A stretch of 41,068 nucleotides of DNA from a virus: positions 1 through 41,068 of IMG/VR virus record IMGVR_UViG_3300043449_001374; one strand, given 5' to 3'. Shown piece by piece: positions 17,271-38,889 of this stretch. Position 1 is the stretch's first letter; every line of letters begins with the position of its first letter. The notes beneath the pieces are model-generated. The model saw only the letters and a program-made list of their open reading frames with translations, was not told the DNA's origin and searched no databases. Made by a program: the position numbers and the translations under genes.

Positions 17271-17779
17271 TCGCCGTGATGCAGATCGACCTGTTCGACC
17301 GAGAGCCAGCGGCTCCAGTGCCTGTGCCACGCCGGCGCTTCGCCGCCCGGGTGGCCGCCTTCGTCCGGTGGGAGCAGCTGGATCTCCTGTCCCCGTCCTG
17401 GCTCAACCGCAGCGACGACGAGCCGGTGGACGATGACCCGTTTGTCATCGCTCCGGTGGTGCATCGCACCGTCCTGGCCTTGGACGCCGAGCCGCCTCAG
17501 ACCACCGGCATCCGCTCGGTGTTCGACATGGCCGCCGCCGTCCTGTCCAAGCCGCCGCGGGCGATTCAGAAGCCCGCAGAGCCCGAGCCTCCGCGCTACG
17601 GCCGCACCCTCCGGGAGGTAGGCGTCACCCGCCACATCGCCATGCGCTACGACGAAACCGCCGAGTGGGCAGAGAAGGAGCGCGCCCGCCGCGCACGGCA
17701 GAAGGTGCCCCGGCCGAGCAAGGCCATCCGCACGCGCAGCCGCAAGCTGCTGGAGATGGTGGGGGGCGGCGATGGCTAG
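17267..17779 (+). CDS. Phage protein of unknown function
   Basis: 170 residues, GTG start at 17267 overlapping the rusA stop; ATG 17279 is also possible. Acidic middle (RSDDEPVDDDP) and a very basic C terminus (WAEKERARRARQKV; RTRSRKLLEM). GRTLREVGVTRHIAMRYDET is a distinctive segment. It ends inside the start of the small terminase-like gene. No family recognised; late-early boundary position could suit an antitermination or regulatory role, which is speculation. Confidence 0.55.
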   Translation: MIAVMQIDLFDREPAAPVPVPRRRFAARVAAFVRWEQLDLLSPSWLNRSDDEPVDDDPFVIAPVVHRTVLALDAEPPQTTGIRSVFDMAAAVLSKPPRAIQKPAEPEPPRYGRTLREVGVTRHIAMRYDETAEWAEKERARRARQKVPRPSKAIRTRSRKLLEMVGGGDG

Positions 17780-19747: not shown

Positions 19748-19753
19748 CCATCG

Positions 19754-19764
19754 CTCCCTAGCAT
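19754..19764 (+). promoter_or_regulatory. CTYCNTAGCAT motif, copy 1
   Basis: CTCCCTAGCAT between the terminase stop and the HNH gene; its last base is 8 positions before ATG 19772. One of nine copies confined to 19.7-38.9 kb. TAGCAT could act as a -10-like box; no matching -35 is visible. Confidence 0.5.
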
Positions 19765-19771
19765 CGAGCGA

Positions 19772-20263
19772 ATGAGCGATGCCGATCAACATGCGCTTAC
19801 CGCCAGCGAAGCCGCCGCATTGGTGATCTACGACCAAGCCACTGGCAAGTTCTACCTCCGGAGCGATGGACGTGAGGTCGGCTTTGTGGTGGCTGCGAAG
19901 GGGTACGTCTGCCTGAAGCTTGCGGGCAAGAAGTACAACGCTCACCGTGTCGCATGGTTGCTTGCAACAGGACACTGGCCCGTCGGTGAGATTGACCATA
20001 TCAACCAGGTCAAGACGGACAACAGGCTGATGAACCTGAGGGATGTCCCTCGCGTCGTCAATGCACAGAACCAGACGCGCGCCCACAAGCGGAATGGGAC
20101 GGGGCTTCTCGGTGTGCACTACGACAAGGATCGTGATCTCTTCATCGCCGCGATCTTCTCCGGGGGCAGGAAGCGGTTCCTTGGTAGGCACAAAACGGCA
20201 GAGGCCGCGCACGCGGCCTACGTCTCGGCCAAGAGGCGGATTCACGAAGGGTGCACCATCTGA
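19772..20263 (+). CDS. HNH homing endonuclease with C-terminal AP2-like domain
   Basis: 163 residues. HNH core AHRVAWLLATGHWPVGEIDH plus NQVKTDNRLMNLRDVPRVVN (about 56-95) is of the phage AP2-HNH type, and the C-terminal part (GTGLLGVHYDKDRDLFIAAI; RKRFLGRHKTAEAAHAAY) is an AP2/ERF-like DNA-binding domain. It is inserted between large terminase and portal; its TGA overlaps the portal's ATG. GC content is visibly lower than in the flanking genes. It has no obvious ribosome site but lies 7 bases after motif copy 1. Confidence 0.9.
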   Translation: MSDADQHALTASEAAALVIYDQATGKFYLRSDGREVGFVVAAKGYVCLKLAGKKYNAHRVAWLLATGHWPVGEIDHINQVKTDNRLMNLRDVPRVVNAQNQTRAHKRNGTGLLGVHYDKDRDLFIAAIFSGGRKRFLGRHKTAEAAHAAYVSAKRRIHEGCTI

Positions 20264-21645
20264 TGGACCAGTTCGAAGGCTTCCTCGTGAACGAGGTTGA
20301 CATTGCTCGGGCGCGTGAGGAAATGCTCGCCGGGTTCGGGTCGCTGGACGCCAAGCGCCCAACCGCTTGGCGGGCCTTCGGCTACCCCGACACGGTGACG
20401 TTCGCGCAGCTGCTGGCGGCCTACCGCCGCGGCGGGCCGGGCCATGGCGCCGTGCACCGCCTGCTGGACAAGTGCTGGCAGGAGCGGCCGCGCATCAAGA
20501 CCGCCGGCAGCGAGGATGAGACCCCGTGGGAAACCAAGGTGGCTGGCCTGTTCAAGGAGCGTCGCCTGTGGGCCAAGCTGCGCGACCTCGACCGCCGCAA
20601 CATGGTGGGCCGGTACGCCGCGTTGATCTACCGGGTGGCCGACAACCTGCCGTTGCGTGAGCCGCTGCAGCGCGCCGTGCGCCTGGTGGACGTGGTCCCG
20701 CTGTACGAGGACCAGATCAGGGTCACGGACTGGCACTCCGACGAGGCGGCAGAGAACTACGGCCAGCCGGCCATGTTCCAGTACCGCACGCGACCGGTGC
20801 AGGGCGCCGACACCCAGGGCCGACCGGAGACGTGGATCGACGTGCACCCCAGCCGGGTGCAGATCCTCGCCGAGGGCTCGGTGGGCGACATGTTCGACGG
20901 CGTGCCGCTCCTCGAGGCGGGCTTCAACTCGCTGATCGACCTCGAGAAGATCACCGGCGGCTCCGCGGAGAGCTACCTGAAGAACTCCGCTCGCACGATG
21001 GTGTTCCAGTATGAGAAGGACGCCCAGTTGCAGAGCATCGGCCCGGCAGACGGCCAGTCGGGGAAGACCGTGCGCCAGGTGCACGAAGAGCAGGCCAAGG
21101 CCCTGAACCGCAACATCGACGCCGCGATCGTGATGAAGGGCGGCACGGCGAACACCCTGCAGACGCAGATTGCCGACCCCGAGTCGCCCTGGGGCGTGGC
21201 CGCATGCACCTTCGCCGCCTCGGTGCGCATCCCGTTCACGATCCTGTTCGGCCAGCAGACCGGCCGGCTGGCCAGCGACGAGGACCGGGCCGACTTCGTG
21301 GAGCGGTGCAAGTCGCGCCAGGAAAACGAGCTCACGCCCATGCTCGAGGAGTTCGTGCGGCGCATGCAGGCGGCCGGGGTCATCGAGCCGGGCGAGTTCG
21401 ATGTGGAATGGCCCCCGCTCGATGCGCCCGGTGACGACGACAAGATGGGCCTGCTGGGCAAGGCAACCGCCGCCATGCATCAAGCCTTCACGGCTGGCGT
21501 CCAGGGCCTGTTCGAGCCGAACGAGCTGAGGGCGATTGTTGGATACGAGCCGTTGAAGGAGATCGACTTGTCCGAAGGTGGCGACGACAGCAGCGAGCCT
21601 GGTGGCGAGACGGAAGAAGGTGAGAGCGACCCCTCCATAGCATGA
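20263..21645 (+). CDS. Portal protein (DUF1073-type)
   Basis: 460 residues from ATG 20263, which overlaps the HNH stop as TGATG; a GTG at 20251 is in frame but less likely. The segment ADPESPWGVAACTFAASVRI followed by PFTILFGQQTGRLASDEDRA is diagnostic of the DUF1073 portal family, with QVHEEQAKALNRNID before it. It forms the dodecameric vertex through which DNA enters and to which the tail attaches. The last codons overlap motif copy 2. Acidic tail (SEPGGETEEGESD). Confidence 0.88.
   Translation: MDQFEGFLVNEVDIARAREEMLAGFGSLDAKRPTAWRAFGYPDTVTFAQLLAAYRRGGPGHGAVHRLLDKCWQERPRIKTAGSEDETPWETKVAGLFKERRLWAKLRDLDRRNMVGRYAALIYRVADNLPLREPLQRAVRLVDVVPLYEDQIRVTDWHSDEAAENYGQPAMFQYRTRPVQGADTQGRPETWIDVHPSRVQILAEGSVGDMFDGVPLLEAGFNSLIDLEKITGGSAESYLKNSARTMVFQYEKDAQLQSIGPADGQSGKTVRQVHEEQAKALNRNIDAAIVMKGGTANTLQTQIADPESPWGVAACTFAASVRIPFTILFGQQTGRLASDEDRADFVERCKSRQENELTPMLEEFVRRMQAAGVIEPGEFDVEWPPLDAPGDDDKMGLLGKATAAMHQAFTAGVQGLFEPNELRAIVGYEPLKEIDLSEGGDDSSEPGGETEEGESDPSIA
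21633..21643 (+). promoter_or_regulatory. CTYCNTAGCAT motif, copy 2
   Basis: CTCCATAGCAT at the very 3' end of the portal gene, 80 bases before the second AP2-HNH gene. A degenerate inverted relative (CCTAGC-containing) lies at about 21649-21659. Confidence 0.45.
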
Positions 21646-21722
21646 GGCGTGCGGCTAGGGATGCAACCCGAAGAGCCTTCAGCAAGCCTGCCGCTCCCTC
21701 GTGCTGAATCAAGGGGCTGACC

Positions 21723-22220
21723 TTGAAGACAGAACTCACCGCGCAGCGACTGCGCGAACTCTTCCACTATGACCCGGAGACGGGAGTCTTTACGCGTCTG
21801 GCGACAAGGCGGACAGACCGGGTTGGTGCAAGAGCGGCGACGAGGCACTCAAACGGCTACATCCGGTTCACTGTGGATGCTCGGCATCAGTACGCGCACC
21901 GGCTTGCATGGCTCTATGTACACGGTCGCTGGCCTTCCGGGGACATCGACCACATCAACCACGACAAGCGCGACAACCGGATCGCCAATCTCCGAGATGT
22001 TTCACGCTCCGTGAATGCTCAGAATCAGATTGCCGCAAGGAGCAACAACCGGACATCCGGAGTGCTGGGGGTTTCCTGGAACAAGTCGGCTGGAAAGTGG
22101 GGGGCCTCCATTCAGGTGGAGTCCAGGCTCAGGCACCTCGGCCTCTTCTCCTCAGTCGATGAGGCCCGCGCGGCGTACCTGACCGCAAAGCGTGCGCTCC
22201 ATCCCGGCTGCCCATTGTGA
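21723..22220 (+). CDS. HNH homing endonuclease with C-terminal AP2-like domain
   Basis: 165 residues with a TTG start (21723) six bases after AAGGGG. HNH core YAHRLAWLYVHGRWPSGDID and NHDKRDNRIANLRDVSRSVN, then an AP2-like domain (SGVLGVSWNKSAGKWGASIQ; LFSSVDEARAAYLTAKRALH). Same architecture as the gene at 19772, but the sequences differ enough to be independent arrivals or an old duplication. Inserted between portal and MuF genes; its stop overlaps the MuF GTG start (GTGA). Confidence 0.9.
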   Translation: MKTELTAQRLRELFHYDPETGVFTRLATRRTDRVGARAATRHSNGYIRFTVDARHQYAHRLAWLYVHGRWPSGDIDHINHDKRDNRIANLRDVSRSVNAQNQIAARSNNRTSGVLGVSWNKSAGKWGASIQVESRLRHLGLFSSVDEARAAYLTAKRALHPGCPL

Positions 22221-23950
22221 AGCCGCCGCGCAGCCCGATCCTTCCCGGCCGGCCGACTGACCGCACCGGTACCGGCGCCATCGTGCGCCGGGCGCTGGCT
22301 GCGATCGACAGGCGCTTCTCCGGGCTCCTCCGCGCCGCCCTGGCCATCTTCGACCGCATCCCGGTCTACAGCCTGAACCTGGACCTTGAGCCGCGTGTGC
22401 GTTACGGCCTGACGGCAGAGCAGATGGCCAGCGTGTCAGAGGAACTCGCCCAGGCCATCCAGCGCGCGCTCGATGGAGACCGGGAGCTCGGGCACGTCCT
22501 GTGGTGGGAGCCGTTTGTGGAGGACGCCGCCCAGCTCGGCGCCGCGCAGTCGTTCGCCAACCTGTCGGCGTTGTCTGAGGCCTACGCCGCCGCGCGGAGC
22601 CTGGAGGCGATCTACTTCTCCGAGCCCTACCGGCTGCGTGTGGCCACGGCCAAGTTCCGCGGGGTGGAGTACTGGACCGGCCTGTCATCCGAGCTTCGGC
22701 GAGACCTCGCCACGGTGATCGGACAGGCCATCGCAGACGGCACCAACCCGAAGGCGGCGCGCCGGCTCATCGCCGAGCGGCTGGAGGTGGGCAAGAGCAG
22801 GGCGGCGCTCTACGCCCAGACGGACATCACCAACGTGCTGCGCGAGGCGCGGATGGCCGAGGCAGACGACGCCCGCGAGCGCCTGGGCATTCGCTCCGGC
22901 CTGCTGTGGGCCAGCGCTTTCCTGCCGACCACGCGGCCGCACCACGCCGCGCGCCACGGGCGGGCGTACAGCACAGAGGAGGTGAAGGCCTTCTACGCGG
23001 AGCGCGGGAACCGCTTCCGGTGCTTCCTACCCGGCACTCTTGTCGCTGGTCGCTTCGTCGCTGGCGTCAAGTCGCGTTACAAGGGGGCGGCCATGTGTCT
23101 CGTGACTGCTGGTGGCCGCCAGCTTTCCGTGACCGCGAATCACCCCGTGCTGACCGCCCGCGGGATGGTGCCGGCGGCAGAACTCCGCAAAGGCGATCAG
23201 CTGGTCGCATACCGGGCCAATGTGCAATCGCCCCTTGGGGTACGCGACTTGTATGGTGGCCTGATGGGCGCCGCTGTCGAGGATGTATTCGGTGCGCTTG
23301 TGGAGGCGGGCCATCAATCGACGGCCAGGGTGAGCCCTGTAGACCTCCACGGCGACGCGGCTTTCGTTGAGCCAGATGTCGACGTTGTACAGACCGATCA
23401 GGAACTGGTGTTCGCATTGGATACCGCGGCGGCGCAGCTCCTCGATCAGCTCCAGTTCGTACTTCCCGACGCGTCGGCTTCTGCTCGCGGCGATCTTGAG
23501 GCGCTCTTCGATGGTCTGCGTTCTCGTGCGCGCGGTGGCATTGGCCGAGGAAGCGTTGGCGCGCCGTTCTTCGGGGCTCATCTTCCCCATGCGATTTCGC
23601 TGAGCATCGCTCCTGTCGCGCAGTTGGACACCGGAGGCACCGAACAGGCGACGGAGGGCCGATCGGCTGATCCCGTGCTGTTGGCTGATGGCCAGCATGG
23701 ATTGCCCATTGGTGTAGAGCTCGATGAGGTGGTGGAGGTTGTGCGGTTTGAGTATGCGGGCCATGTGTTCGATCTCCAGGAGCGAAGTGGCCTGATGCTA
23801 GGAAGCAATATCGTGGTGTCTAACTGCCACTGTTCCATCACCGAGGTGCTGCTGGACGAGAAGGGCCGTCCCATCCTGACCGACCGAGCGAAGAAGTCGC
23901 TGGCCGGCGAGCTGGCCGCCTGGCGCAAGGCGCAGAAGGGCGCTCCATAG
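22217..23950 (+). CDS. MuF-like head morphogenesis protein interrupted by an in-frame intein
   Basis: GTG start, 577 residues: N-extein 1-268, intein 269-536, C-extein 537-577, giving a 309-residue mature protein. The exteins are a phage Mu F / SPP1 gp7 minor head protein: ALYAQTDITNVLREARMAEA, then RTRPHH-like PTTRPHHAARHGRAY, and the conserved RFRC-HC box, which the intein splits before the first Cys. MuF proteins sit inside the capsid near the portal and aid head assembly or DNA ejection. An antisense nuclease gene lies inside the intein. The stop TAG falls within motif copy 3. Confidence 0.88.
   Translation: MKPPRSPILPGRPTDRTGTGAIVRRALAAIDRRFSGLLRAALAIFDRIPVYSLNLDLEPRVRYGLTAEQMASVSEELAQAIQRALDGDRELGHVLWWEPFVEDAAQLGAAQSFANLSALSEAYAAARSLEAIYFSEPYRLRVATAKFRGVEYWTGLSSELRRDLATVIGQAIADGTNPKAARRLIAERLEVGKSRAALYAQTDITNVLREARMAEADDARERLGIRSGLLWASAFLPTTRPHHAARHGRAYSTEEVKAFYAERGNRFRCFLPGTLVAGRFVAGVKSRYKGAAMCLVTAGGRQLSVTANHPVLTARGMVPAAELRKGDQLVAYRANVQSPLGVRDLYGGLMGAAVEDVFGALVEAGHQSTARVSPVDLHGDAAFVEPDVDVVQTDQELVFALDTAAAQLLDQLQFVLPDASASARGDLEALFDGLRSRARGGIGRGSVGAPFFGAHLPHAISLSIAPVAQLDTGGTEQATEGRSADPVLLADGQHGLPIGVELDEVVEVVRFEYAGHVFDLQERSGLMLGSNIVVSNCHCSITEVLLDEKGRPILTDRAKKSLAGELAAWRKAQKGAP
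23027..23764 (-). CDS. Antisense homing endonuclease nested within the intein: HTH plus Vsr/EDxHD-like nuclease
   Basis: 245 residues. N terminus: an HTH (LIELYTNGQSMLAISQQHGI, SRSALRRLF). Next is a NUMOD-like basic stretch (MSPEERRANASSANATART). Then comes a Vsr-like nuclease fold: YELELIEELRRRGIQCEHQF, IGLYNVDIWLNESRVAVEV, RLHKRTEYILDSGAHQATI. The C terminus (HGVIRGHGKLAATSS) lies opposite intein blocks A-B. GGAG precedes the ATG by nine bases. The frame is codon-aligned with the intein; its TAG stop is the complement of a CTA leucine at intein position 3. It is wholly inside the intein, so cutting an intein-free MuF allele would copy both. Family likeness is from memory. Confidence 0.75.
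   Translation of the reverse strand: MARILKPHNLHHLIELYTNGQSMLAISQQHGISRSALRRLFGASGVQLRDRSDAQRNRMGKMSPEERRANASSANATARTRTQTIEERLKIAASRSRRVGKYELELIEELRRRGIQCEHQFLIGLYNVDIWLNESRVAVEVYRAHPGRRLMARLHKRTEYILDSGAHQATIQVAYPKGRLHIGPVCDQLIAFAEFCRRHHPAGGQHGVIRGHGKLAATSSHETHGRPLVTRLDASDEATSDKSAG
23795..23805 (-). promoter_or_regulatory. CTYCNTAGCAT motif, inverted copy
   Basis: CTTCCTAGCAT on the minus strand, inside the intein's C-terminal coding sequence and 30 bases upstream of the antisense endonuclease's ATG. It is the only copy on this strand and it faces the only minus-strand homing gene of the late region. Confidence 0.5.
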
Positions 23951-23953
23951 CAT
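23943..23953 (+). promoter_or_regulatory. CTYCNTAGCAT motif, copy 3
   Basis: CTCCATAGCAT overlapping the MuF stop codon, same variant as copy 2. No coding sequence follows on this strand before the terminators at 24028 and 24100. Confidence 0.45.
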
Positions 23954-24027
23954 GGGCAGCGCATCTGGCCATGGTGCACCGCCTGAGCTCCACAGGCATT
24001 GAAGCCCGGCCTCTGGCTCGGCTGCGG

Positions 24028-24050
24028 AAGCCCCTTCGGGGGCTTTCGTC
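24028..24050 (+). terminator. Rho-independent terminator after the MuF gene
   Basis: AAGCCCC-TTCG-GGGGCTT: a 7-base perfect stem with a TTCG tetraloop followed by TCGTC. It would stop rightward transcription coming from the packaging genes. Confidence 0.65.
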
Positions 24051-24060
24051 TTCCTAGCAT
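24050..24060 (+). promoter_or_regulatory. CTYCNTAGCAT motif, copy 4
   Basis: CTTCCTAGCAT immediately after the first terminator stem. No gene starts directly downstream on this strand. Confidence 0.45.
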
Positions 24061-24099
24061 CTTCCTCGCGTCCTCGTCGGATGCGCCTCCGTGCGCTTC

Positions 24100-24138
24100 G
24101 GGGCCGGTAGCCGCAGGGCGCCGGCCCCTTTTCTTCTT
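24100..24138 (+). terminator. Second rho-independent terminator
   Basis: GGGGCCGG (24100-24107), 13-base loop, CCGGCCCC (24121-24128), then TTTTCTTCTT. Perfect 8-base GC stem with a T-tract. The T-tract ends at the stop codon of the convergent membrane-protein gene. Confidence 0.65.
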
Positions 24139-24682
24139 AGCGGGCTTCCCGCTGCGCCTTGACGCATGCCGGTTGCTCATTCGCAAGGCCGGTCGCAAAT
24201 GAGTACCCGAGCACTCCGACGGCGGCGAGTCCGGTAACGGTCGTGACCACGAGGGTAGCGAACCAGGAAGCCTTATCCCAATACGAAACGCTGTCGTGGG
24301 CAGATGCCAGTTTCTCAAGCGCCGCCACGTACGTCTCTCGGCTGCTTGATGTGCTCGGTGCTGTGAGGATGCGCGTCTGTTTGAGTATGCGCATATGGAC
24401 GATGACCATCTTCGATACCTCAAAGAGCACGAAGACCGTCAAGGACGCCAACGCAAGGAGCGCAGCGGCTAGCGTCTGCTTATGAGTCAGGTAATCCTTG
24501 CTGAGCTGCCAGAGACCAAAGAACCCAGCGTAACCCGCAAGGATGAGCATGTTCGTGTAGGCCGTTGCCTTATCAAAGGCTACGGTCAACAGTTTCAGTT
24601 GAGCTTCAGCGACCTTGGCGGCCCGCCGCTCATCTTCTTCCGCGCGTGCTCTTCTGATCAGCTCATGCACGTTCTCTTGCAT
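24137..24682 (-). CDS. Three-helix membrane protein, inserted cargo (moron-like) gene
   Basis: 181 residues from ATG 24682, with GGAGG five bases upstream. A charged N-terminal helix (HELIRRARAEEDERRAAKVA) precedes three hydrophobic segments: about 44-61 (MLILAGYAGFFGLW), 70-93 (TLAAALLALASLTVFVLFEV) and 145-170 (ASWFATLVVTTVTGLAAVGV). It is the only complete non-homing gene on the minus strand in the late region, is less GC-rich than its surroundings, and faces two terminators. This is the signature of a separately expressed cargo gene, possibly exclusion or defence related. Family unknown. Confidence 0.72.
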   Translation of the reverse strand: MQENVHELIRRARAEEDERRAAKVAEAQLKLLTVAFDKATAYTNMLILAGYAGFFGLWQLSKDYLTHKQTLAAALLALASLTVFVLFEVSKMVIVHMRILKQTRILTAPSTSSSRETYVAALEKLASAHDSVSYWDKASWFATLVVTTVTGLAAVGVLGYSFATGLANEQPACVKAQREAR

Positions 24683-24727
24683 CGTCGCCTCCCTGTTAGA
24701 CAACCAAGAATAGTCCACTCGGGCGAC

Positions 24728-24738
24728 CTTCCTAGCAT
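24728..24738 (+). promoter_or_regulatory. CTYCNTAGCAT motif, copy 5
   Basis: CTTCCTAGCAT ending 8 bases before the ATG of the DUF2213 gene. Because two terminators precede it, something in this gap must restart rightward transcription, so this copy is the best promoter candidate. Confidence 0.55.
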
Positions 24739-24746
24739 GCCGCGGC

Positions 24747-26042
24747 ATGAAGCGAACCCGAGTCCACATCCTCTCTGCCGTCAACGCCTCGGCGGTCACC
24801 AAAGACGGCGGCACGTTCACCATCAGCGGCGTGTGCGGCGCGGTGGACGAGATCGTCATGAATGGCGTGCTGTACCCGGGCCAGGAGCTCGCGGACGGCG
24901 TGGCCACCATGGAAGGCAAGCCCGCCCCGGCCGGCCATCCGAAGAACGCGAAGGGCCAGCACATCAGCGCGCTGAACGGCGAGGCCCTGGCCTCCGCCTG
25001 GATCGGCAGCTACTGCCGCAACGCCCGGCACGAGGGCGGCCGCACGCTGGTCGACGTCGTGGTGAACGAGGCCCAGGCCAAGGCCCACCCGGACGGTGCC
25101 AAGCTGGTGGAGCGCCTGGAGGCGGCCGTCAACGGCACCCAGACCGACCCGATCCACGTCAGCACCGGTCTGCTGTGCCGGATGCTGGAGGTCAACGGCG
25201 AGTCGCGCGGGAAGAAGTACAGCCGCGTCGCCACCGGAATCCAGTACGACCACCTGGCCATCCTGCTGAACCAGCGCGGTGCCGGCACGCCTGAGGACGG
25301 CGTGGGCATGTTCCTGAACTCCGAGGGAACCGAGGAGCCGGTGGAGGTGGCCAACCTCGACGCCGAGCCGGCCGACGCGCGCGAACGCAACCGGCTGACC
25401 GCCTGGATCAAGCGTCTGCTGGGCAATTCCGAGCTCAGCTTCTCCGACATCTCCACGCAGTTGCAGAAGGGCCTGCCCGACGGCTGCTGGCTGATGGAGG
25501 TCTACGACCGCTACGCCGTCTGGTGCGGCCGCGACAACCGGCTCTGGCGCCAGGACTACGAGACCGTCGAAGGTGCCTCCGTAGCATGGGCCGGAAGCCC
25601 GATCGAGGTGGCTCGGCGGGTGAGCTACGAACCCGTCACCAACCTGCAAGAAGAGGAACCTGACGCCGTGAAGGAACACATCGTCGCCGCGCTCAACGCC
25701 GCCGGCATCAAGACGGAGGGGCTCGACGACGCTCAGCTCCTCTCCGCGTACAACGCCCTGGTCAACAAGCCGATCGCCGATCAGCTGGCCGCGGTGAACA
25801 GCAAGCTCGCCGAACGCGAGGCCGCTGAGCGCGCCGCCGAAGAGGCCGAGGTCTCGAAGCTGGCCGAGCAGCTGGCCGTGAACTCCTCGCTCACCGTGGA
25901 CGACCTCAAGAAGCTGGGCGCCGCCCGGCTGCGCGAACTGTCGGCCAAGGCGGCGCCCGTGGTGCCCGGCCAGGCCGGCTCGGCGCAGAGCCAGTTCACC
26001 GGCTACTCCATCAACGCCCTGATCGACAAGAAGGAGGCCTGA
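24747..26042 (+). CDS. DUF2213-like prohead protease/scaffold protein
   Basis: 431 residues from ATG 24747. The first 190 or so match the DUF2213 plan found between portal and capsid genes (GGTFTISGVCGAVDEIVMNG; AGHPKNAKGQHISALNGEAL; DPIHVSTGLLCRMLEV; YDHLAILLNQRGAGTPEDGV), which probably acts as a head-maturation protease. A middle DUF2213-unrelated stretch (230-305) is followed by a helical, Glu/Ala-rich C terminus (VNSKLAEREAAERAAEEAEV) like a scaffold. A GTG at 25668 could start a separate scaffold product. No normal ribosome site precedes ATG 24747. Confidence 0.75.
   Translation: MKRTRVHILSAVNASAVTKDGGTFTISGVCGAVDEIVMNGVLYPGQELADGVATMEGKPAPAGHPKNAKGQHISALNGEALASAWIGSYCRNARHEGGRTLVDVVVNEAQAKAHPDGAKLVERLEAAVNGTQTDPIHVSTGLLCRMLEVNGESRGKKYSRVATGIQYDHLAILLNQRGAGTPEDGVGMFLNSEGTEEPVEVANLDAEPADARERNRLTAWIKRLLGNSELSFSDISTQLQKGLPDGCWLMEVYDRYAVWCGRDNRLWRQDYETVEGASVAWAGSPIEVARRVSYEPVTNLQEEEPDAVKEHIVAALNAAGIKTEGLDDAQLLSAYNALVNKPIADQLAAVNSKLAEREAAERAAEEAEVSKLAEQLAVNSSLTVDDLKKLGAARLRELSAKAAPVVPGQAGSAQSQFTGYSINALIDKKEA
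25577..25587 (+). promoter_or_regulatory. CTYCNTAGCAT motif, copy 6
   Basis: CTCCGTAGCAT inside the DUF2213 gene, 80 bases upstream of the possible internal scaffold start GTG 25668. Confidence 0.4.
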
Positions 26043-26043
26043 C

Positions 26044-26493
26044 GTGCCGAACCGCGTGTACCGGGGTCCGATGACCCGCCAACCCGAGGCCGTCTCGGGC
26101 AAGACCGTCGCCGGCACCTACAAGCCGTGCACCTTCGTGACCGAGGGCGCCTCGACGCTGACCCAGGCGACGGCCTTCGGCCCGAACCTGCGCCTGCTGG
26201 CCAACCGCGACTTTTACAGCACCGGCTGGGACAACGCGACCGACCCGCTGGCGACCGACTACGCGAGCGGCGACACCGGCATCGCGTTCAAGCTCGAGCC
26301 GGGCCAGCAGTACCAGGTGGCCGTCGCCGCCGCCACCTACACCTTCGGCCAAGAGCTGACGGTGGGCGCCGCGGGCCGTCTCGCCGCCGCTGCCACCGGG
26401 AACATCGTCATGGCGTTCGCCCGCGGCGCCGGCGCCAAGAGCGCGGGCGACCTGATGGACGTCGAGATCGCCAACCACTACACCAAGCCGTAA
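26044..26493 (+). CDS. Head decoration-like protein
   Basis: 149 residues from GTG 26044, with GGAGG seven bases upstream. Beta-rich and hydrophobic with YQVAVAAATYTFGQELTVGA and GRLAAAATGNIVMAFARGAG, a pattern shared with lambda gpD-position capsid-stabilising proteins (DUF2190-like). It lies directly upstream of the major capsid gene. Expected to coat the expanded capsid. Confidence 0.65.
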   Translation: MPNRVYRGPMTRQPEAVSGKTVAGTYKPCTFVTEGASTLTQATAFGPNLRLLANRDFYSTGWDNATDPLATDYASGDTGIAFKLEPGQQYQVAVAAATYTFGQELTVGAAGRLAAAATGNIVMAFARGAGAKSAGDLMDVEIANHYTKP

Positions 26494-26502
26494 GGAGGGC
26501 CC

Positions 26503-27495
26503 ATGCTCCGCTTCACCCCCGAACAGGAACTGGCGGTCAATCAGGCCCGCGAGCAGTTCTTCCAGACCGAGACTGCCCGCGCTTCGCAGCAGATCCTCAT
26601 CGGCAACGCCGCGCCCATCCCGGTGGACGCCTGGCGCCGCATCGACCAGCGCGGCATCACCATCCAGCGTGACGTGCTGGCGGTGTTCAACCGCTTGGCC
26701 GCGGCCGACCAGACGCCCATCGGCATCGGCGACGTGGTGAACTACTACCCGCAGATCAGCGACTCGGGCGAGGTCAACGTCACCATGGACGGCCGCTCCC
26801 AGGGCCGCGGTGACCAGGCCAACGTCAAGTACGTGGGCACCCCGGTGCCCGTGCTCGACAGCCAGGCCACCTTCGGCTGGCGCCAGATGGCAGTGAACGG
26901 CAAGTCCGCGCTGGGCCTGGACACCGCCACGATCGCCAACCACCAGCGCCGCATCGCCGAGAAGCTGGAGGACATGGCCCTGAACGGCCTGACCACCGTC
27001 GTCGTCGGCGGCGCCACGATCTACGGCCTGCGCAACTTCCCGCAGCGCAACACCGCGACCCACGGCCTGACCCTGGCGAGCGCGACCGGTGCGCAGTGGC
27101 TGACCGCGTTCTCCTCGATGATCAACCAGCTGGTGGGCGACAACGCCTTCGGCCGGGTGACGGTGTTCCTCAACTGGGGCGACTACACCTACGCGAGCCT
27201 GAACGAGTTCGCCGCGGGCTACCCGAAGACCATCCTGGCCCGCCTGCGCGAGATCGAACAGATCGCCGACATCGTGCCGGCCTCCAAGGTGCCGGCGAAC
27301 GAGATCATCGGCATCGCCGGCATCGAGACCGGCGGCTGGGGCACGATCCTGTCGGCCATGCCGATGGTGACGCGCCCGAAGCAGCGCCTGAACCCCGAAG
27401 ACGACTACGTCTTCTCGGTGATGGCCGCCGCCGCGCCGCAGCTCAAGAGCGATTACGACGGCCGCGCGCCGATCGCTCACATCACCGCCTCGTGA
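26503..27495 (+). CDS. Major capsid protein
   Basis: 330 residues starting MLRFTPEQELAVNQAREQFF after TAAGGAGG. It has an HK97-like order: an N-terminal helix, EDMALNGLTTVVVGGATIYG near the spine helix, then beta-rich C-terminal regions (GWGTILSAMPMVTRPKQRLN). Resembles the encapsulin-related phage capsid family often found after a DUF2190-like protein. Size and position between decoration and connector genes fit. It forms the icosahedral shell. Confidence 0.82.
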   Translation: MLRFTPEQELAVNQAREQFFQTETARASQQILIGNAAPIPVDAWRRIDQRGITIQRDVLAVFNRLAAADQTPIGIGDVVNYYPQISDSGEVNVTMDGRSQGRGDQANVKYVGTPVPVLDSQATFGWRQMAVNGKSALGLDTATIANHQRRIAEKLEDMALNGLTTVVVGGATIYGLRNFPQRNTATHGLTLASATGAQWLTAFSSMINQLVGDNAFGRVTVFLNWGDYTYASLNEFAAGYPKTILARLREIEQIADIVPASKVPANEIIGIAGIETGGWGTILSAMPMVTRPKQRLNPEDDYVFSVMAAAAPQLKSDYDGRAPIAHITAS

Positions 27496-27506
27496 CCGGA
27501 GGGCGC

Positions 27507-27698
27507 ATGAAGGTACGCATCAACGTGCTGAAGGCGCCCTGGCCCGAAGGGGCCAAGGTGGGCGACGTGGTGGAGCTTGACCACATCACGCCTGCCTTCC
27601 TGGGCAAGTGCGAGCAGGTGGGTGACGACGAGAAGGCGACGGTCGCCTTCAAGGCCGAAGCCAAGCCGCGCCTGGGCGACAAGCGGGCCGAGCGGTGA
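27507..27698 (+). CDS. Small head-tail region protein, 63 residues
   Basis: Starts MKVRINVLKAPWPEGAKVGD after GGAGGG. A short beta-rich domain with a basic tail (RLGDKRAER). It lies between capsid and connector genes and its stop overlaps the next GTG start. Possibly a capsid accessory or connector component. Confidence 0.55.
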   Translation: MKVRINVLKAPWPEGAKVGDVVELDHITPAFLGKCEQVGDDEKATVAFKAEAKPRLGDKRAER

Positions 27699-28054
27699 TC
27701 ACGCTGCAGCAGGCCACCGAGTACCTCGACCAGGCGCTCGGGGTCTCGCTGCCGTCTTTCCTCGTGCAGGCCGCCGTGGACACGGTGGCCGAGCACGAAT
27801 CCGCGCTGGCAGCCGCCTACGCTGCCGCGCACACGCGCGTGCTGATCCAGACGCTGGCGGTGGCCGTTGTGGCATGCGCCAGCGATCCGCGGCGCCTGCG
27901 CTCCCAATCGGCCCCGTCTGGTGCGGCCCGGTCCTTCGCCGGCGGCGCGGACCTGGACAAGCTGCGCGACCAGCTGGCCAGCCTGGACACCGCCGGCGTG
28001 CTGGCCTCCATCACCGGCGCCGGCAGCACCTACTTCGCGGTCATCGAGGGATGA
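27695..28054 (+). CDS. Head-tail connector-like protein
   Basis: 119 residues, GTG start. N-terminal helical part ITLQQATEYLDQALGVSLPS with AAVDTVAEHESALAAAYAAA resembles the adaptor proteins that sit under the portal (HK97 gp6-type position). The C-terminal SPSGAARSFAGGAD-like region is flexible. Assignment is by position and helical content. Confidence 0.5.
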   Translation: MITLQQATEYLDQALGVSLPSFLVQAAVDTVAEHESALAAAYAAAHTRVLIQTLAVAVVACASDPRRLRSQSAPSGAARSFAGGADLDKLRDQLASLDTAGVLASITGAGSTYFAVIEG

Positions 28055-28395
28055 GCGCCGCGGCGTCGTGGAGCTACACGGCCAAGGCCACGATCTGGCC
28101 TGCCAACGGGCGCGCCAACGACTGGAACGGCGGCCGCGCCTTCGGCCTGCCGGTCGTCATCGCCTGCGACTACGGGGCCACCTCCAAGACCGTTCGCACC
28201 GCCCGGGGAGACGAGTTCGCGGCCAAGCTGGCGATCTACACCGAGCACGCCGGCGCGCGGGTGGGTGACATGGTGGCCATTGGTGAGCACACCAGCTCCC
28301 AGCCGGTCGCCGACGCACGCGAGGTGATGGTCATCGAGCGCCAGGCCGACACCTTCGACCGCAGGGCCGACGACTACACCCTGCTCACCGGCTGA
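28051..28395 (+). CDS. Head-tail joining protein-like
   Basis: 114 residues, ATG overlapping the upstream stop. Beta-barrel-like pattern: SWSYTAKATIWPANG, GRAFGLPVVIACDYGATSKT, GDEFAAKLAIYTEHAGARVG, ADAREVMVIERQADTFDRRA. This resembles head-tail stopper proteins (SPP1 gp16/lambda FII-like), which close the connector after packaging. Position fits. Confidence 0.55.
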   Translation: MSAAASWSYTAKATIWPANGRANDWNGGRAFGLPVVIACDYGATSKTVRTARGDEFAAKLAIYTEHAGARVGDMVAIGEHTSSQPVADAREVMVIERQADTFDRRADDYTLLTG

Positions 28396-28398
28396 CGC

Positions 28399-28755
28399 AT
28401 GGCGCGCAAGGCCGTGCGCATCAAGGACCGGCTGCCGCAGTTCGCGGAGCAGGTGAAGCGGCGCGCCGAGCGGGCCATGACGCGCATCCTCATCACCGGC
28501 GCCGCCCAGGCCTCGGTGATGACGCCGATCGACACGTCAACTCTGCTCAACAGCCAGTACCGCCGGATCTTCCGCAGCGCTGAGGCCGTGCGCGGGGTGG
28601 TTGGCTACTCGGCTGCCTACGCCATGCCGGTGCACGACCCGGACGTGGCGCAGACCTTCCGGCGCTCCACCGCAGAGAAGGAGTTCCTCCGCAAAGGCTT
28701 CGAGGAGTCGCGCGACCTGCTCCGTAGCATCGTCCGAGAGGAAATGAAGCCGTGA
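28399..28755 (+). CDS. HK97 gp10-like tail/head connector protein
   Basis: 118 residues. Helical N terminus (FAEQVKRRAERAMTRILITG), then TPIDTSTLLNSQYRRI and VVGYSAAYAMPVHDP, which is the usual gp10/minor-tail Z signature (T-P-v-d-T-G-x-L and a Y-a-x-x-v-H box). Its 3' end contains motif copy 7 and overlaps the next GTG start. It contributes to joining the tail to the head. Confidence 0.75.
   Translation: MARKAVRIKDRLPQFAEQVKRRAERAMTRILITGAAQASVMTPIDTSTLLNSQYRRIFRSAEAVRGVVGYSAAYAMPVHDPDVAQTFRRSTAEKEFLRKGFEESRDLLRSIVREEMKP
28720..28730 (+). promoter_or_regulatory. CTYCNTAGCAT motif, copy 7
   Basis: CTCCGTAGCAT in the 3' end of the gp10-like gene, 21 bases before the GTG of the next gene. Confidence 0.4.
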
Positions 28756-29117
28756 CCACGTCCAACGCCGTCGCCGAAGCGCTCAAGCCGCTGGCCGAAG
28801 AGGTCGCGGCGAACTGGCGCGTGCAGTTCGGCTGGCTGGCCGACACCCGCGACACGACCGCGCGCTTCGTGCTGATGCGGCCGGTTGGCGGCGGACCGGC
28901 GGTGCATGTGCGCCGGCCCATCGTCTCGGTGGTGTTCGTCGGCGCCGTGGGCGACCGCTCCGACGCGTCGATGCTGGTCTCCGAGGCATTCGCCGAGCGC
29001 GTGCGCCAGGGCGTCACTGGCCTGGCCTTCGCCGAGGTGAGCGAGCCCACCGTCTCCCAAACCGCTGACGGCCGGCCGGTGGCCGAGGTTGCCGTTTCGT
29101 CCATTCTGAGCCTGTAA
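28752..29117 (+). CDS. Tail terminator-like protein
   Basis: 121 residues, GTG start overlapping the upstream stop. An N-terminal helix, an FVLMRPVGGGPA strand pair, RRPIVSVVFVGAVGDRSDAS, then a helix and a final ADGRPVAEVAVSSIL strand match the lambda gpU-like fold plan. These hexamers cap the tail tube and dock to the head. Assigned from position and pattern. Confidence 0.55.
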   Translation: MTTSNAVAEALKPLAEEVAANWRVQFGWLADTRDTTARFVLMRPVGGGPAVHVRRPIVSVVFVGAVGDRSDASMLVSEAFAERVRQGVTGLAFAEVSEPTVSQTADGRPVAEVAVSSILSL

Positions 29118-29129
29118 GGAGGGCCGTCA

Positions 29130-29579
29130 ATGAGTGCATATGTCGGGCGTGACGTGCTGGTGGAATACGCCATCGCCACGGAAACCGCCGCCCAATCCGG
29201 CCTGGTGTTCAGCACCCTGGGCATGATGCGGGACAAGGAGCTGTCCATCTCCTGGGACACCGTGGACACCACGGGCGACAAGTCCCCGAGCCAGACGCGC
29301 CAGTCCCTGGTGACGTTCAAGTCGGTGGAGTTCTCCGGCTCCGGCGTGAGCTACGACGACGCGGTGCACAACCAGCTCGCCTTCGAGCAGCACGTCGTCA
29401 ACCCGCCGTCGGCCACGCAGAACCAGCCGAAGGTCTGGCTGCGCATCACCTACCCGAACAAGGTCTACATCGGCCCGTTCATCGTGTCCGAGTTCTCCAA
29501 CTCCAACGCGTACGACGCCGAGTCCACCTGGTCGATCACCGCCAACAGCAACGGCGCGGTGTCGCTGTCCGCGCTGTAA
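29130..29579 (+). CDS. Major tail tube protein
   Basis: 149 residues after TAAGGAGGGCC. Beta-rich with YVGRDVLVEYAIATET, then LSISWDTVDTTGDKSPSQTR and VEFSGSGVSYDD, ending DAESTWSITANSNGAVSLSAL. The W-D-T-V-D-T-T-x-D pattern is typical of siphovirus tail tube proteins of the TP901-1/lambda V type. It polymerises around the tape measure. Confidence 0.78.
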   Translation: MSAYVGRDVLVEYAIATETAAQSGLVFSTLGMMRDKELSISWDTVDTTGDKSPSQTRQSLVTFKSVEFSGSGVSYDDAVHNQLAFEQHVVNPPSATQNQPKVWLRITYPNKVYIGPFIVSEFSNSNAYDAESTWSITANSNGAVSLSAL

Positions 29580-29588
29580 GGAGCAAGC

Positions 29589-29936
29589 ATGGCTGTCATC
29601 TCTTCCACCTCCATGAAGGGTGTGCTGGGCGCTCAGACGCTCACCGTCACGACCCTCGGCGCCAGCGACACGCTGCCCTACGACCCGAACAAGAAGCAGG
29701 CGCTGCTGCTGCTGAACCAGACGGCCGGCAGCCTGACGGCGACCATCGACGGCGACGGCGGCACCACCGTCCCGGTGGATGGCCTGGGGGCTGTCAACGT
29801 GGCCTCTGGCCTGCAGATCGTCGTCGCCGCGAGCGAGGTCCGCATGGTGATGCTGCCCACGGTCCGCCACTACCTGCAGGGCGTGGTCACCGTCAGCGGC
29901 GCCTCGGGCCTGAAGGCCGTGATTGTGGAGGTCTGA
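29589..29936 (+). CDS. Beta-rich tail-region protein of unknown function
   Basis: 115 residues after AAGGAGC. Sequence is strand-rich and Thr/Gly/Val heavy (LTVTTLGASDTLPYDPNKKQ; LTATIDGDGGTTVPVDGLGA). It sits between the tail tube and the chaperone-like gene and may be a tail-tube decoration or Ig-like accessory. Family not recognised. Confidence 0.55.
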   Translation: MAVISSTSMKGVLGAQTLTVTTLGASDTLPYDPNKKQALLLLNQTAGSLTATIDGDGGTTVPVDGLGAVNVASGLQIVVAASEVRMVMLPTVRHYLQGVVTVSGASGLKAVIVEV

Positions 29937-30511
29937 TGCCCGACGCGCTCATGCCCGAGCTGGGGCATGTCCGCGTCACGGTCGCCGGCCAGGATCACGA
30001 CTTCGTTCCGTCCCTGGCCGCGATCAACAGCCTGGGCTCCGGGGCCGAGATCATCCAGACGGCCGCCGATCTTCACGACCGGCGGCCGTTGTTCTTCCTG
30101 GCCGCCGCGCGGGCTGTGATGCTGGCGTGCTACCGGGGCGACCCGGAGGCTCTGCTGCCGCTGATCGGCTGGCAGGAGGACGGCTGCGACTACCCGGGCG
30201 CCATGCCCCAGGCCGAGCTGCTGGCCGTGGCCCGTCACCTCATCCAACACGGCACGGCCGGCAAGGCCAAGCCGGGCAGCAGCCGCGGCCAGTACACGGC
30301 CGAGTTCAGCGTGGCGCAGCACGTCGCGGCCGCGGTGGCGCACCTCGGCGTGTCGCGCGCTGACGCTCTGGCCATGACGATGACCGAGATGCAGACGCTC
30401 ATCGAGGCGAAGTTCCCCGAGGCGCGCGCCAAGGAGGTGCCGAGCCGCGAGGAGTACCGCAAGCAGCTGGCCGCCATCATGGCCAAGCGAAAGGGCAAGC
30501 GTGTCCACTGA
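29936..30511 (+). CDS. Tail assembly chaperone-position protein (DUF6246-like)
   Basis: 191 residues; ATG overlaps the previous stop as TGATG. Helical, with DFVPSLAAINSLGSGAEIIQ, ARAVMLACYRGDPEALLPLI and a C terminus SREEYRKQLAAIMAKRKGKR. It occupies the place of the gpG/gpGT chaperones immediately before the tape measure. I see no clear slippery heptamer, and it seems a single frame. Its stop overlaps the tape measure's GTG start region. Confidence 0.6.
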   Translation: MPDALMPELGHVRVTVAGQDHDFVPSLAAINSLGSGAEIIQTAADLHDRRPLFFLAAARAVMLACYRGDPEALLPLIGWQEDGCDYPGAMPQAELLAVARHLIQHGTAGKAKPGSSRGQYTAEFSVAQHVAAAVAHLGVSRADALAMTMTEMQTLIEAKFPEARAKEVPSREEYRKQLAAIMAKRKGKRVH

Positions 30512-32888: not shown

Positions 32889-32892
32889 CGCC

Positions 32893-34032: not shown

Positions 34033-34045
34033 GAGCACACCGACG

Positions 34046-34939: not shown

Positions 34940-35376
34940 GCCGCGAGAGCGTTGTGCAGTGCGCCCTGGGCTGGATGGGCACCCCGTACCGCCACCGGCA
35001 GCGGGTCAAAGGGGTTGGGGTGGACTGCGCCCAGATCCTGGCCGCCGTCTATGAGGAGGCTGGGATCATCGCCCCGATCGACCTGGGCGACTACCCGGTG
35101 CAGTGGCACCTGCATCACGAGCGCGAGCTCTACCTGGAGTGGCTGGCGCACGCGGGCGCCTGGCGCATCGATGGCGACCCGCTTCCCGGCGACATCGGCG
35201 TCTGGAAGTTCGGTCTCACCCACAGCCACGGCGGCATCGTGATCGAGGGCGGGCCCGACCCGCTGGTGCTGCACAGCTTCATCAAGGCGCGGCGCGGGGT
35301 GACCCTCTGCCGCGCGGCTTCCGAGCAGCCGCTGGCCGGTTCCGAGAGCGTTCAGTACTGGAGGATCATCCCGTGA
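34936..35376 (+). CDS. NlpC/P60 tail-associated peptidase
   Basis: 146 residues. Catalytic Cys31 lies in GVGVDCAQ, and the His is in LTHSHGGIVIEGG near residue 98. ALGWMGTPYRHRQRVKGVGV is the family's N-terminal box. It corresponds to the peptidase half of lambda gpK and would open peptidoglycan during DNA entry or act in tip assembly. Overlaps its neighbours at both ends (ATGA, GTGA). Confidence 0.88.
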   Translation: MSRESVVQCALGWMGTPYRHRQRVKGVGVDCAQILAAVYEEAGIIAPIDLGDYPVQWHLHHERELYLEWLAHAGAWRIDGDPLPGDIGVWKFGLTHSHGGIVIEGGPDPLVLHSFIKARRGVTLCRAASEQPLAGSESVQYWRIIP

Positions 35377-38300: not shown

Positions 38301-38873
38301 ACGTTCAGCCGGACCAACTCCACGGGGGTCACCTCGACGCGATCGGTCAACACTGTGACCGTCACCGCGATGACGTCGGCCGTTGACTCTGGCTACGTTG
38401 ACATCACCGCGACGCGCTCGGGCTACCCATCGGTGACTCGCCGCTTCGTCCTCACCAAGAGCAAGGGAGCGACTGGCCCGGGTCCGGTGGACACGTTCCG
38501 CAGCGTGTCGGCCTTCGGCGTGGCTTCAGGCGGCGGCTCGAAAACGGTCGGGATCCGCTTCGAATCTGACGGCGACATTTCGGTGCGCACCACGACCACT
38601 TCCTACAACGCGCGGTCGACGTGGTACTCGCCTCAGGCGGCCGGCGTTGGGTCCGGCTACTGGGTGAAGGCTGAGCTCATCTCCGGGACGGCGCCTGGCG
38701 TGGGCGGCCTGGACGTGTGGCAGCACCTCGACGCCGACAAGACGTGGGAGCTCACCAGGTCTGGAACAGGCGAGGAGGCGTGCACGCTTCTCATCAGCGT
38801 GGCGGATTCCTCGGCCGGCACCAACATCATCGGCTCCGGCACGTTCTACCTGAGGGCCACCGTGGAGCCGTGA
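35373..38873 (+). CDS. Host-specificity tail tip protein (lambda J-like)
   Basis: 1166 residues from GTG 35373, overlapping the peptidase stop. N-terminal hub region (QSSAHGVVIPVVGGVARVAG; GKGGVETQNTTYSYTVSVIM), a Phage-tail_3-like section at about 250-480 (AYCQAAGLLMSPALTTQMRG; RTVRQSDDRYNHVKVEYNDR), then fibronectin/Ig-like modules from about 735 to 1030 (VVWSVVSGTATLTGTGDTRT; FTCTRYDAAGASLGTVALGG) and a C-terminal domain from about 1040. The C-terminal part probably binds the host receptor. At least two Ig-like units look related. Confidence 0.88.
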   Translation: MSGQTIRNSETKLEALTLQSSAHGVVIPVVGGVARVAGNLIDYFDFTAHPKTETEGGKGGVETQNTTYSYTVSVIMGVAHGRVYAGDVWKGKSFYNGGPTGTQIARSTSTYAVPASGAMTYTLPQAAFIGAPLVAYSGAGKVQVLSDEADYKVVGTTLTVLRDAWRGKTLTIAYQYATVTPAHPGLTTLGLSFAYGAADQTAPAWVTSSDPSRARSYPYLAYLHGQDYALGSGASIENHSMEVVGFGAYRHGSTKPDCNIAEFVAWLLGHAEIGAGLPAGALDVSDWIAYCQAAGLLMSPALTTQMRGGDLLQRACELTNSIVVQSYNTIKVLPLCDVEITGNGVTYTPNTTPVYDLTDDWMIGNPPFTRTVRQSDDRYNHVKVEYNDRANYYNKSIAEAQDDGDIALNGRRTKSTITAPWICDANVARLVAQLTMQRDLNIAGGGTCRLPWAFCLLDVGDLVNVADPVLGDELWPMRITRIDEDQDGFLSLTLEDWPLGTAAPTAYTVEVPGGYLHNYNADPGNIDTPAIFEGPAALADGTGIEVMVAARGLNADWGGCHVWVSFDGTNYQRMATIYGASRYGRLNGAITDVSSSMAVDELGDAELAPGSLDDAQNLVTLCYLGGTTPEYVAYEGATLTGPGAYTLSGLVRAAYSSPANARADNSRFVRIDDRVARSGPLDAALVGKQIRIKACSFNRYGRNVQSLADVTAYTYTITGTPAGFDPGLNGKGVVLKASALTFLYPKAGGVTPSSITLTPERKGGLKGAVVWSVVSGTATLTGTGDTRTLTAADLTTDSARIRASVTDAVSTYSDDVTISKVVDGADGGDAPLLSLQCTAQAFTYDKAGSPLPTSQTITFTAALQNLSGTATFTCTRYDAAGASLGTVALGGTGNTRTLTHTQFGTAHYAVVTATLSGLTDTETIVRLRDGSDAITADLTNQSHTLPSDALGNVSSYAGAVSTLVIYEGLTDTSSSWTFSRTNSTGVTSTRSVNTVTVTAMTSAVDSGYVDITATRSGYPSVTRRFVLTKSKGATGPGPVDTFRSVSAFGVASGGGSKTVGIRFESDGDISVRTTTTSYNARSTWYSPQAAGVGSGYWVKAELISGTAPGVGGLDVWQHLDADKTWELTRSGTGEEACTLLISVADSSAGTNIIGSGTFYLRATVEP

Positions 38874-38878
38874 TGCCG

Positions 38879-38889
38879 CTCCCTAGCAT
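38879..38889 (+). promoter_or_regulatory. CTYCNTAGCAT motif, copy 8
   Basis: CTCCCTAGCAT between the J-like stop and the next ATG (38898), 8 bases apart, the same spacing as copy 5 and nearly that of copy 1. Confidence 0.5.

Follow-up and report, generated by a model that had tools for sequence, protein, structure and literature searches.

An 11-base motif, CTYCNTAGCAT, recurs in this phage, and we conclude that it is very probably the core of a phage-specific late promoter built on a -10 element alone. The initial annotation had offered a late promoter giving leaderless or short-leader mRNAs as one option, and comparison with related phages supports that option well, although neither RNA 5' ends nor any other experimental data are available. 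The motif's occurrence, conservation, spacing classes, codon-level constraint and lineage restriction are directly observed; promoter activity, the exact +1, late timing and the recognising factor are inferred.

Nine motif copies and the genes they adjoin

The window analysed here is an IMG/VR virus record of 41,068 bases, and it therefore carries no attached host DNA. All nine reported copies were recovered at their positions and strands with zero mismatches, and TAGCAT occurs in the whole window only inside the motif (eight times on the plus strand, once on the minus strand). Bare chance is excluded as their origin: in 100 dinucleotide shuffles the mean was 0.03 copies, lower than the approximately 0.2 first estimated, and nine were never reached. 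The reversed pattern has 0 matches in the window, and an Rfam search of positions 19500-30000 gave 0 matches with E<=1.

Three copies lie directly before a start codon, at the distances of 7, 8 and 8 nt originally described, and are of the leaderless type. The first, CTCCCTAGCAT (19754..19764, plus strand), forms TAGCAT-N7-ATG with a free-standing HNH_3 endonuclease gene (19772..20263, plus strand); this is the terminase/portal junction, which in relatives holds the portal promoter and the portal start, and the motif is upstream in 6/8 orthologs of the HNH gene. The second, CTTCCTAGCAT (24728..24738, plus strand), forms TAGCAT-N8-ATG with the DUF2213 protease/scaffold gene (phrog_760; 24747..26042, plus strand). 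The third, CTCCCTAGCAT (38879..38889, plus strand), has the same arrangement with gene 38898, for which the comparison comprised the window itself and no other locus. Two further copies are of the leadered type. Copy CTCCATAGCAT (21633..21643, plus strand), at the 3' end of the portal gene, is followed by a recurring leader (GCGGMTAGGG...AAGCC) and a second HNH_3 endonuclease gene (21723..22220, plus strand), 7 of whose 11 orthologs have the motif upstream with at most one mismatch; three such leaders were folded and no stable fold was found (z 0.07, 1.58, 0.88). Copy CTCCGTAGCAT (28720..28730, plus strand), at the 3' end of the neck gene, is separated by 24 nt plus GTG, with AGAGGA between, from the tail-terminator gene at 28752, and the motif (at most one mismatch) is near the start of this gene in 10/19 orthologs.

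The earlier statement that every copy shares the strand of the next gene holds except for 23943 and 24050. Copy CTCCATAGCAT (23943..23953, plus strand) overlaps the stop of a Mu-F-like gene, has no evident gene downstream and reads into a terminator-like hairpin. Copy CTTCCTAGCAT (24050..24060, plus strand) lies immediately 3' of this hairpin and faces a minus-strand ORF (24137-24964) from its 3' side, ahead of copy 24728; it is possibly a relic or recombination joint. These two of the nine window copies, without an evident gene to serve, count against a promoter reading. Most copies were first described as sitting at gene ends; 25577 and 28720 are inside genes.

The single minus-strand copy, CTTCCTAGCAT (23795..23805), lies in the C-terminal coding region of an intein and points towards an antisense endonuclease-like ORF of 245 aa (23027..23764, minus strand) located inside the portion of the Mu-F-like gene (22217-23950) that encodes the intein. 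It is followed by GGAG and then by an ATG at 23764, about 30 nt from the motif, and a motif copy is retained in this region of related inteins. We found no prior description of such an antisense intein endonuclease in open-licence PMC text.

The motif is conserved at orthologous gene boundaries

Lack of conservation at orthologous boundaries in related phages would have refuted the original proposal; we found the motif conserved at the portal, DUF2213 and other boundaries. De novo motif sampling upstream of the portal gene, over 61 loci, yielded CTcCCTAGCATg (32 exact, 56 with at most one mismatch), and the same motif, CTcCCTAGCATg, was obtained upstream of DUF2213 over 55 loci (41 exact, all 55 with at most one mismatch). 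Sampling upstream of the MCP, decoration, TerL and Mu-F genes did not find it, and at 12 of the other gene boundaries tested it was absent or nearly so. At the portal gene the motif stands 6-9 nt before the ATG in 53/59 listed loci. The DUF2213 start is leaderless in 29 of 54 loci and leadered in 24, where the motif lies 24-34 nt from the start and a normal Shine-Dalgarno sequence (SD) is present; one locus is ambiguous. In locus L011 the ATG is at offset 8, which the script had scored as 94.

The copy inside the DUF2213 gene, CTCCGTAGCAT (25577..25587, plus strand), is kept in the same frame in all 51 loci. It is encoded through very rare codons (GTA, CTA and ATA make up 4.2, 2.4 and 0.7% of their families), and GCA (13%) is also mostly used. 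An in-frame ATG, GTG or TTG with an SD-like 4-mer follows 65-80 nt past the copy in 48/48 loci; in the window a GTG with GAGG/AGGA upstream would start a separate scaffold protein of 124 aa (25668..26042, plus strand). This conservation through rare codons, together with the start signals downstream, leads us to infer that the internal copy is a promoter for a separately made scaffold protein, in the absence of transcript data. In lambda C/Nu3, too, the scaffold domain is produced on its own from within the protease gene; the DUF2213 scaffold differs in having its own conserved internal promoter, as predicted here. Conserved amino acids could add to the conservation seen at both the intein and the internal DUF2213 sites.

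The motif marks a single phage lineage

The motif marks one phage lineage, and the hosts named for it are Burkholderiales. Similar density across host genomes, which would have argued against the proposal, was not found: in eight genomes (approximately 42 Mb), 52 of 83 exact matches fall in prophage clusters and host chromosomes carry scattered background copies only, so a host-wide motif is rejected. In six prophages all 46 copies lie at or after a gene that we call gene B, that is, in the late half. Sites also vary in concert within one phage, with TATCAT in L117 and L127 and a GTYC variant in L025, L026, L027, L032 and L087. The permutations belonging to this analysis and to that of the internal site used 72 loci including near-duplicates, and their p values are consequently too small. 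None of 50,697 phage records has a portal protein above 60% identity, and open-licence PMC text yielded no prior description of the motif or the lineage.

Anatomy of the proposed promoter

Spacing was measured after exclusion of 8 window sub-loci and 7 duplicate loci, which left 196 sites with enough flank, 188 of them distinct; the counts include related phages, and the events are therefore not independent. An ATG begins 6-9 nt past the motif at 91/188 sites (25, 25, 35 and 6 at offsets 6, 7, 8 and 9, against 0, 0, 0, 4, 0 and 0 at offsets 0-5), all 91 without an SD, and the A of the ATG is on this basis the predicted +1. Leaderless genes are reported to carry TANNNT some 12 bp ahead of the start codon (PMC3160421); this signature, without an SD, is present at the portal gene in 53/59 loci and at DUF2213 in 29/54. 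TAGCAT fits TANNNT, and no conserved -35 was found between -51 and -14 (column information at most ~0.15 bit, 188 sites). A CA start signal was read by eye in 23/24 DUF2213 leaders. Overall it is weak, occurring at offsets 6-9 in 53/97 non-leaderless sites, compared with 16-50 of 97 for windows of the same width farther downstream, and in only 23/55 sites without a recognised SD and start.

In the mechanism that we propose, TAGCAT would serve as the -10 box without a -35, and CTYC, at about -17 to -14, would replace the usual extended -10 and confer phage specificity. RNA would start 6-9 nt past TAGCAT, usually at an A after C. Where this A belongs to an ATG, as in the window at 19772, 24747 and 38898, the mRNA would be leaderless; in other cases a short leader with an SD is predicted (the antisense start at 23764, 28752 and the internal scaffold start at 25668). 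Copies would stand at the front of operonic blocks in the head-tail region and drive homing-endonuclease cassettes, and the copy inside the protease gene would allow the scaffold protein to be made separately.

Within this mechanism, unmodified host sigma-70 holoenzyme might read the promoter with no phage factor. TAGCAT fits TANNNT and the TATCAT variant is closer still to the sigma-70 consensus, but we consider this unlikely given the near-invariance of 11 bp, the non-TG CTYC at the extended -10 position and the absence of a TTGCC-like -35, the host -35 according to PMC4603805; lineage restriction and concerted site change likewise suggest a phage-specific reader. The specificity beyond the -10 (CTYC, and the G and C of TAGCAT) and the concerted change do imply a factor that reads sequence, and this factor could instead be a phage activator, repressor or antiterminator bound near ordinary promoters. 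We regard such a regulator site as very improbable: no other conserved promoter element surrounds the sites, a bound regulator would cover a start point only 6-9 nt away, and the motif is non-palindromic.

The tight spacing to SD-less ATG codons is also what a start-associated sequence (SAS) recruiting ribosomes would produce, and the position resembles that of the SAS of cluster K mycobacteriophages. We rejected such a translation signal, which retains hardly any credibility, since the same DUF2213 element is either leaderless or followed by a short leader with an SD, and since the motif stands 65-80 nt from the scaffold start and about 30 nt from the intein endonuclease start; its TANNNT core also fits a promoter and not a ribosome signal. 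Finally, nuclease processing of the mRNA by a cut 6-9 nt downstream of the motif, although compatible with a strand-specific motif inside operons and genes and with a fixed 5' end, can be all but set aside, as the TANNNT match and spacing would be coincidence, 11 nt of exact sequence would be required outside the mature RNA, and no nuclease candidate was found.

Gene B is a candidate for the recognising factor

The factor that reads the proposed promoter is probably phage-encoded. Gene B (17267..17779, plus strand; 170 aa) lies immediately before TerS and has an N-terminal clamp-binding-like motif, QIDLF. Co-occurrence was counted in the 55 of 117 TerL loci that had 2.6 kb of sequence before TerL and ~3.4 kb counted from its start; 29 of these have both gene B and the motif and 26 have neither. 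Q[LMIF]xLF occurs in 25/46 gene-B proteins compared with 0.095 in shuffles, without binding data, and the C-terminal part is conserved and basic (ETxEWxExExxRRARQxPPKP). Pfam, PHROG and PDB yielded no relative of gene B above threshold, and tblastn at E<=0.1 against 50,697 phage records yielded none either; a fold search gave nothing usable (E>=1.7), and the structure model is of low confidence (mean pLDDT 71.5, pTM 0.30). It is a new, previously undescribed small protein family. No gp55-like sigma homologue was found, gene B having neither a sequence nor a fold match. We tentatively name gene B as the leading candidate for the recognising or late-transcription factor, at somewhat less than even chances. 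Gene A (15998-16756), which by eye resembles a tandem winged-helix protein, was rejected as regulator; it is represented by only 9 ORFs, from fewer distinct loci, and is present in three of six prophages only.

Relation to known systems

Bacterial TA-led leaderless genes share the core and the distance of the phage motif (PMC3160421), but theirs is a general signal of the host whose three central bases carry little information, whereas the phage motif is a near-invariant 11-bp element of one lineage. In Burkholderia cenocepacia, leaderless transcripts have been mapped that follow directly on a TA-rich motif, with a -10 of TAnAAT (PMC4603805). The cluster K SAS, like the phage motif, is short and asymmetric, recurs in a single orientation and stands immediately upstream of starts; the likeness first suggested stands for position only, as the SAS GGGATAGGAGCCC contains GGAG while the phage motif has no SD-like core, has a -10 core instead and is also found ahead of longer leaders and within genes. 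The early and late promoters of phage AR9 share the design of one core motif followed by ~6 nt to the +1, and include internal, antisense and intron-borne promoters; AR9 differs in having its own multisubunit polymerases and leaders of 26-491 nt (PMC5312081).

T4 late promoters (gp55/gp33/gp45) likewise consist of a -10-like element without a conserved -35, in many late-gene copies (PMC7892883), and in the present lineage the motif co-occurs with a small phage protein that carries a clamp-binding-like motif. The phage motif nevertheless is quite different in sequence, GC-rich and extended upstream by CTYC, many of its starts are leaderless, and the clamp would be the host's. By analogy, the gene B motif raises, without proving, clamp-coupled late transcription as in T4, a mechanism described in a review as unique to T4-related phages (PMC2988020). 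Joining these inferences, one may imagine a replication-coupled late-transcription system, the second of its kind and independent in origin, in which the N-terminal QLxLF of gene B would bind the host beta sliding clamp and its basic C-terminal part RNA polymerase, activating -10-only CTYCNTAGCAT promoters for leaderless structural mRNAs much as gp33/gp55/gp45 do, with homing endonucleases and the intein-embedded antisense endonuclease tapping the same promoter. This combined scheme remains speculative and we think it doubtful.

The motif would provide a readable late-gene code for a whole unannotated lineage of Burkholderiales phages, making it possible to predict promoters, start sites and the heads of operons from sequence. 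It predicts that the portal, protease and other structural genes of a proteobacterial phage are translated from leaderless mRNAs and that the scaffold protein is expressed separately, and a new protein family, gene B, may couple late transcription to replication.

Distribution of the motif

All nine copies of CTYCNTAGCAT reported in the initial annotation were recovered at the positions claimed, against a chance expectation of 0.03, and every TAGCAT in the whole window lies inside the motif, with none elsewhere. The copies span 19754-38889, within the structural half of this 41,068-base viral contig; on its map TerL (18335-19747) and portal (20251-21645; phrog_146) are followed by a Mu-F-like head gene with an intein (22217-23950), DUF2213/phrog_760 (24747-26042), and the decoration (26044), major head (26503), neck (28399), tail terminator (28752) and major tail (29130) genes.

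Searches of IMG/VR gave 8 loci by portal query and 80 by TerL query, and a profile search added 51 viral matches as well as 11 loci from prophages of named genomes (Pseudorhodoferax, Comamonas, Rhodoferax, Pseudacidovorax, Roseateles and one Burkholderiaceae MAG). Near relatives were motif-rich, and the majority of distant TerL loci had no motif. The expectation that the motif would not recur at similar density across host DNA was also borne out: eight host genomes (~42 Mb) held 83 exact matches (reversed-pattern control, 16 in all), 52 of them inside prophage clusters and 31 elsewhere by our count. Scanning all viral contigs with the pattern CTCCCTAGCATGN{5,7}ATG returned 71 stretches; those outside known contigs either accompanied this late module or were single copies without related late genes, frequently in low-GC DNA and consistent with chance.

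Position relative to late genes

Among 188 distinct sites, ATG lay 6, 7, 8 or 9 nt past the end of TAGCAT at 25, 25, 35 and 6 sites (0-4 at offsets 0-5), Shine-Dalgarno (SD)-like 4-mers peaked at offsets 14-17, and no conserved -35 was found. A motif sampler without prior knowledge recovered the motif from the upstream regions of portal (61 loci) and DUF2213 (55 loci) and from those of none of five other genes tested. When orthologs of the window's late genes were surveyed at ≤1 mismatch, the motif was present at portal (54/65), DUF2213 (53/60), an internal scaffold start (50/50), the gene at ~28051 (30/43), tail terminator (10/19) and the HNH_3 endonuclease genes HNH1 (6/8) and HNH2 (7/11); it was found at 1 of 64 Mu-F genes and was absent from TerS (0/26), TerL (0/96), decoration (0/51), major head (0/49) and major tail (0/41), with 0-3 in each reverse-strand control. 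This uneven presence places the motif at the head of particular blocks, not of each gene.

Promoter or ribosome signal

The DUF2213 start offers a natural experiment, since the same motif precedes leaderless and leadered genes. In 29 loci the ATG follows the motif by 6-8 nt with no SD; in 24 others the motif lies 24-34 nt before the ATG with an SD-like stretch between (the nearest in-frame start being only 13 nt away in some). These leadered loci have an A at offset 6-9, preceded by C in 23 of 24 by our reading, and this is the position that the ATG's A takes when the gene is leaderless. The CA signal was weaker when all sites were pooled (53/97 versus 16-50/97 in control windows). The motif-to-ATG geometry matches that of TANNNT-led leaderless genes in an excerpt of PMC3160421, and an excerpt of PMC4603805 describes leaderless transcripts mapped in a Burkholderia. 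A promoter is thus favored over a ribosome signal and, judged from sequence, the motif is very probably a promoter.

A minus-strand ORF at 24137-24964, with hydrophobic stretches and by eye a probable membrane protein, is flanked by two CTTCCTAGCAT copies (24050 and 24728), an arrangement resembling an insertion between duplicated promoters.

A further copy, inside DUF2213, was present in 51/51 loci in one reading frame throughout, 44 exact to CTYCNTANCAT. Its NTA codon is GTA, CTA or ATA, which within these genes account for 4.2%, 2.4% and 0.7% of the codons in their amino-acid families; the amino acid varies while the silent third base is constant. A start codon lies 65-80 nt past it in 48/48 loci (GTG 37, ATG 10, TTG 1; GTG 25668 in the window), each with an SD-like 4-mer upstream. 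From these sequence features alone we infer a putative internal promoter and a separately made scaffold protein.

Homing endonucleases

Three of the nine window copies serve homing endonucleases: those of HNH1 and HNH2 and the minus-strand copy (23795-23805), which lies within the C-terminal coding part of the Mu-F-like gene's intein and points toward an antisense ORF (23764-23027, minus strand) with GGAG nine nt upstream of its ATG. This endonuclease-like ORF overlaps the middle of the intein in the plus-strand gene; it matched HTH_58 (E 0.00056), and no named nuclease domain was found in it. Related intein and antisense ORF pairs occur in phage loci L010, L016, L025, L026, L032, L109, L132 and L215, and exact motif copies occur in such inteins, absent in L132 and L032. 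A literature search of open-licence PMC text revealed no such arrangement among the matches listed.

HNH2-type genes are preceded, after the motif, by a recurring leader, GCGGMTAGGG...CCCGAARAGCCTT...AAGCCTGCC (window 21651-21722; L012 from 12898; L016 from 11361; L102, L134, L151). Its differing genomic places suggest that the endonuclease cassette is mobile together with promoter and leader. The leader had no Rfam match in the window, and its fold energy was not unusual.

In the HNH1 region (19747-20263), HNH1 occupies the place of the relatives' portal ATG behind the putative promoter, and the portal gene of the window, which has no motif copy of its own, now begins at or close to the HNH1 end. 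A further homing-type ORF containing NUMOD4 (HNH-type; 3313-3834, minus strand) lies in the early region without the motif.

A candidate reader

Motif sites covary within a single phage (TATCAT at every site found in L117 and L127), and this joint variation suggests a trans-acting reader, likely phage-encoded. When ORFs lying upstream of TerL in six prophages were used as seeds for families, the gene B family (17267-17779, adjoining TerS; 58 ORFs, 46 distinct, by iterative search) was present in 6/6 prophages and 57 loci; the sole other 6/6 family (window 4278-5927, minus strand) was in 7 loci. Sufficient flanking sequence was available at 55 TerL loci: gene B and motif were both present in 29 and both absent from 26, and neither occurred alone. 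Loci with TerL at 42-45% were positive and those at 47-58% negative, so gene B and motif track each other rather than TerL, with the caveat that 28 of the 29 also contain the portal module. A minority of loci have a motif copy near the gene B start; the window does not. Gene B had no credible Pfam, PHROG or PDB family match and no match among the phage records searched, and its predicted structure model was poor. Its identification as the reader is tentative and somewhat doubtful.

Q[LMIF]xLF, which resembles the beta-clamp consensus QL[S/D]LF in an excerpt of PMC3716654, occurs within the first 90 residues of 21/46 gene-B proteins versus 17/5669 other ORFs, and ahead of the C-terminal part in 25/46 versus 0.095 in shuffles, with binding not shown; the strict form is missing in 17/41 uncut members, some with near forms. 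Clamp coupling of late transcription, for which there are no binding data, is an unlikely reading. In L117 and L127, two cases only, the gene-B C-terminal tails are also altered relative to the family.

The motif is very probably a variant of phage-specific -10-only late promoters, a known class.
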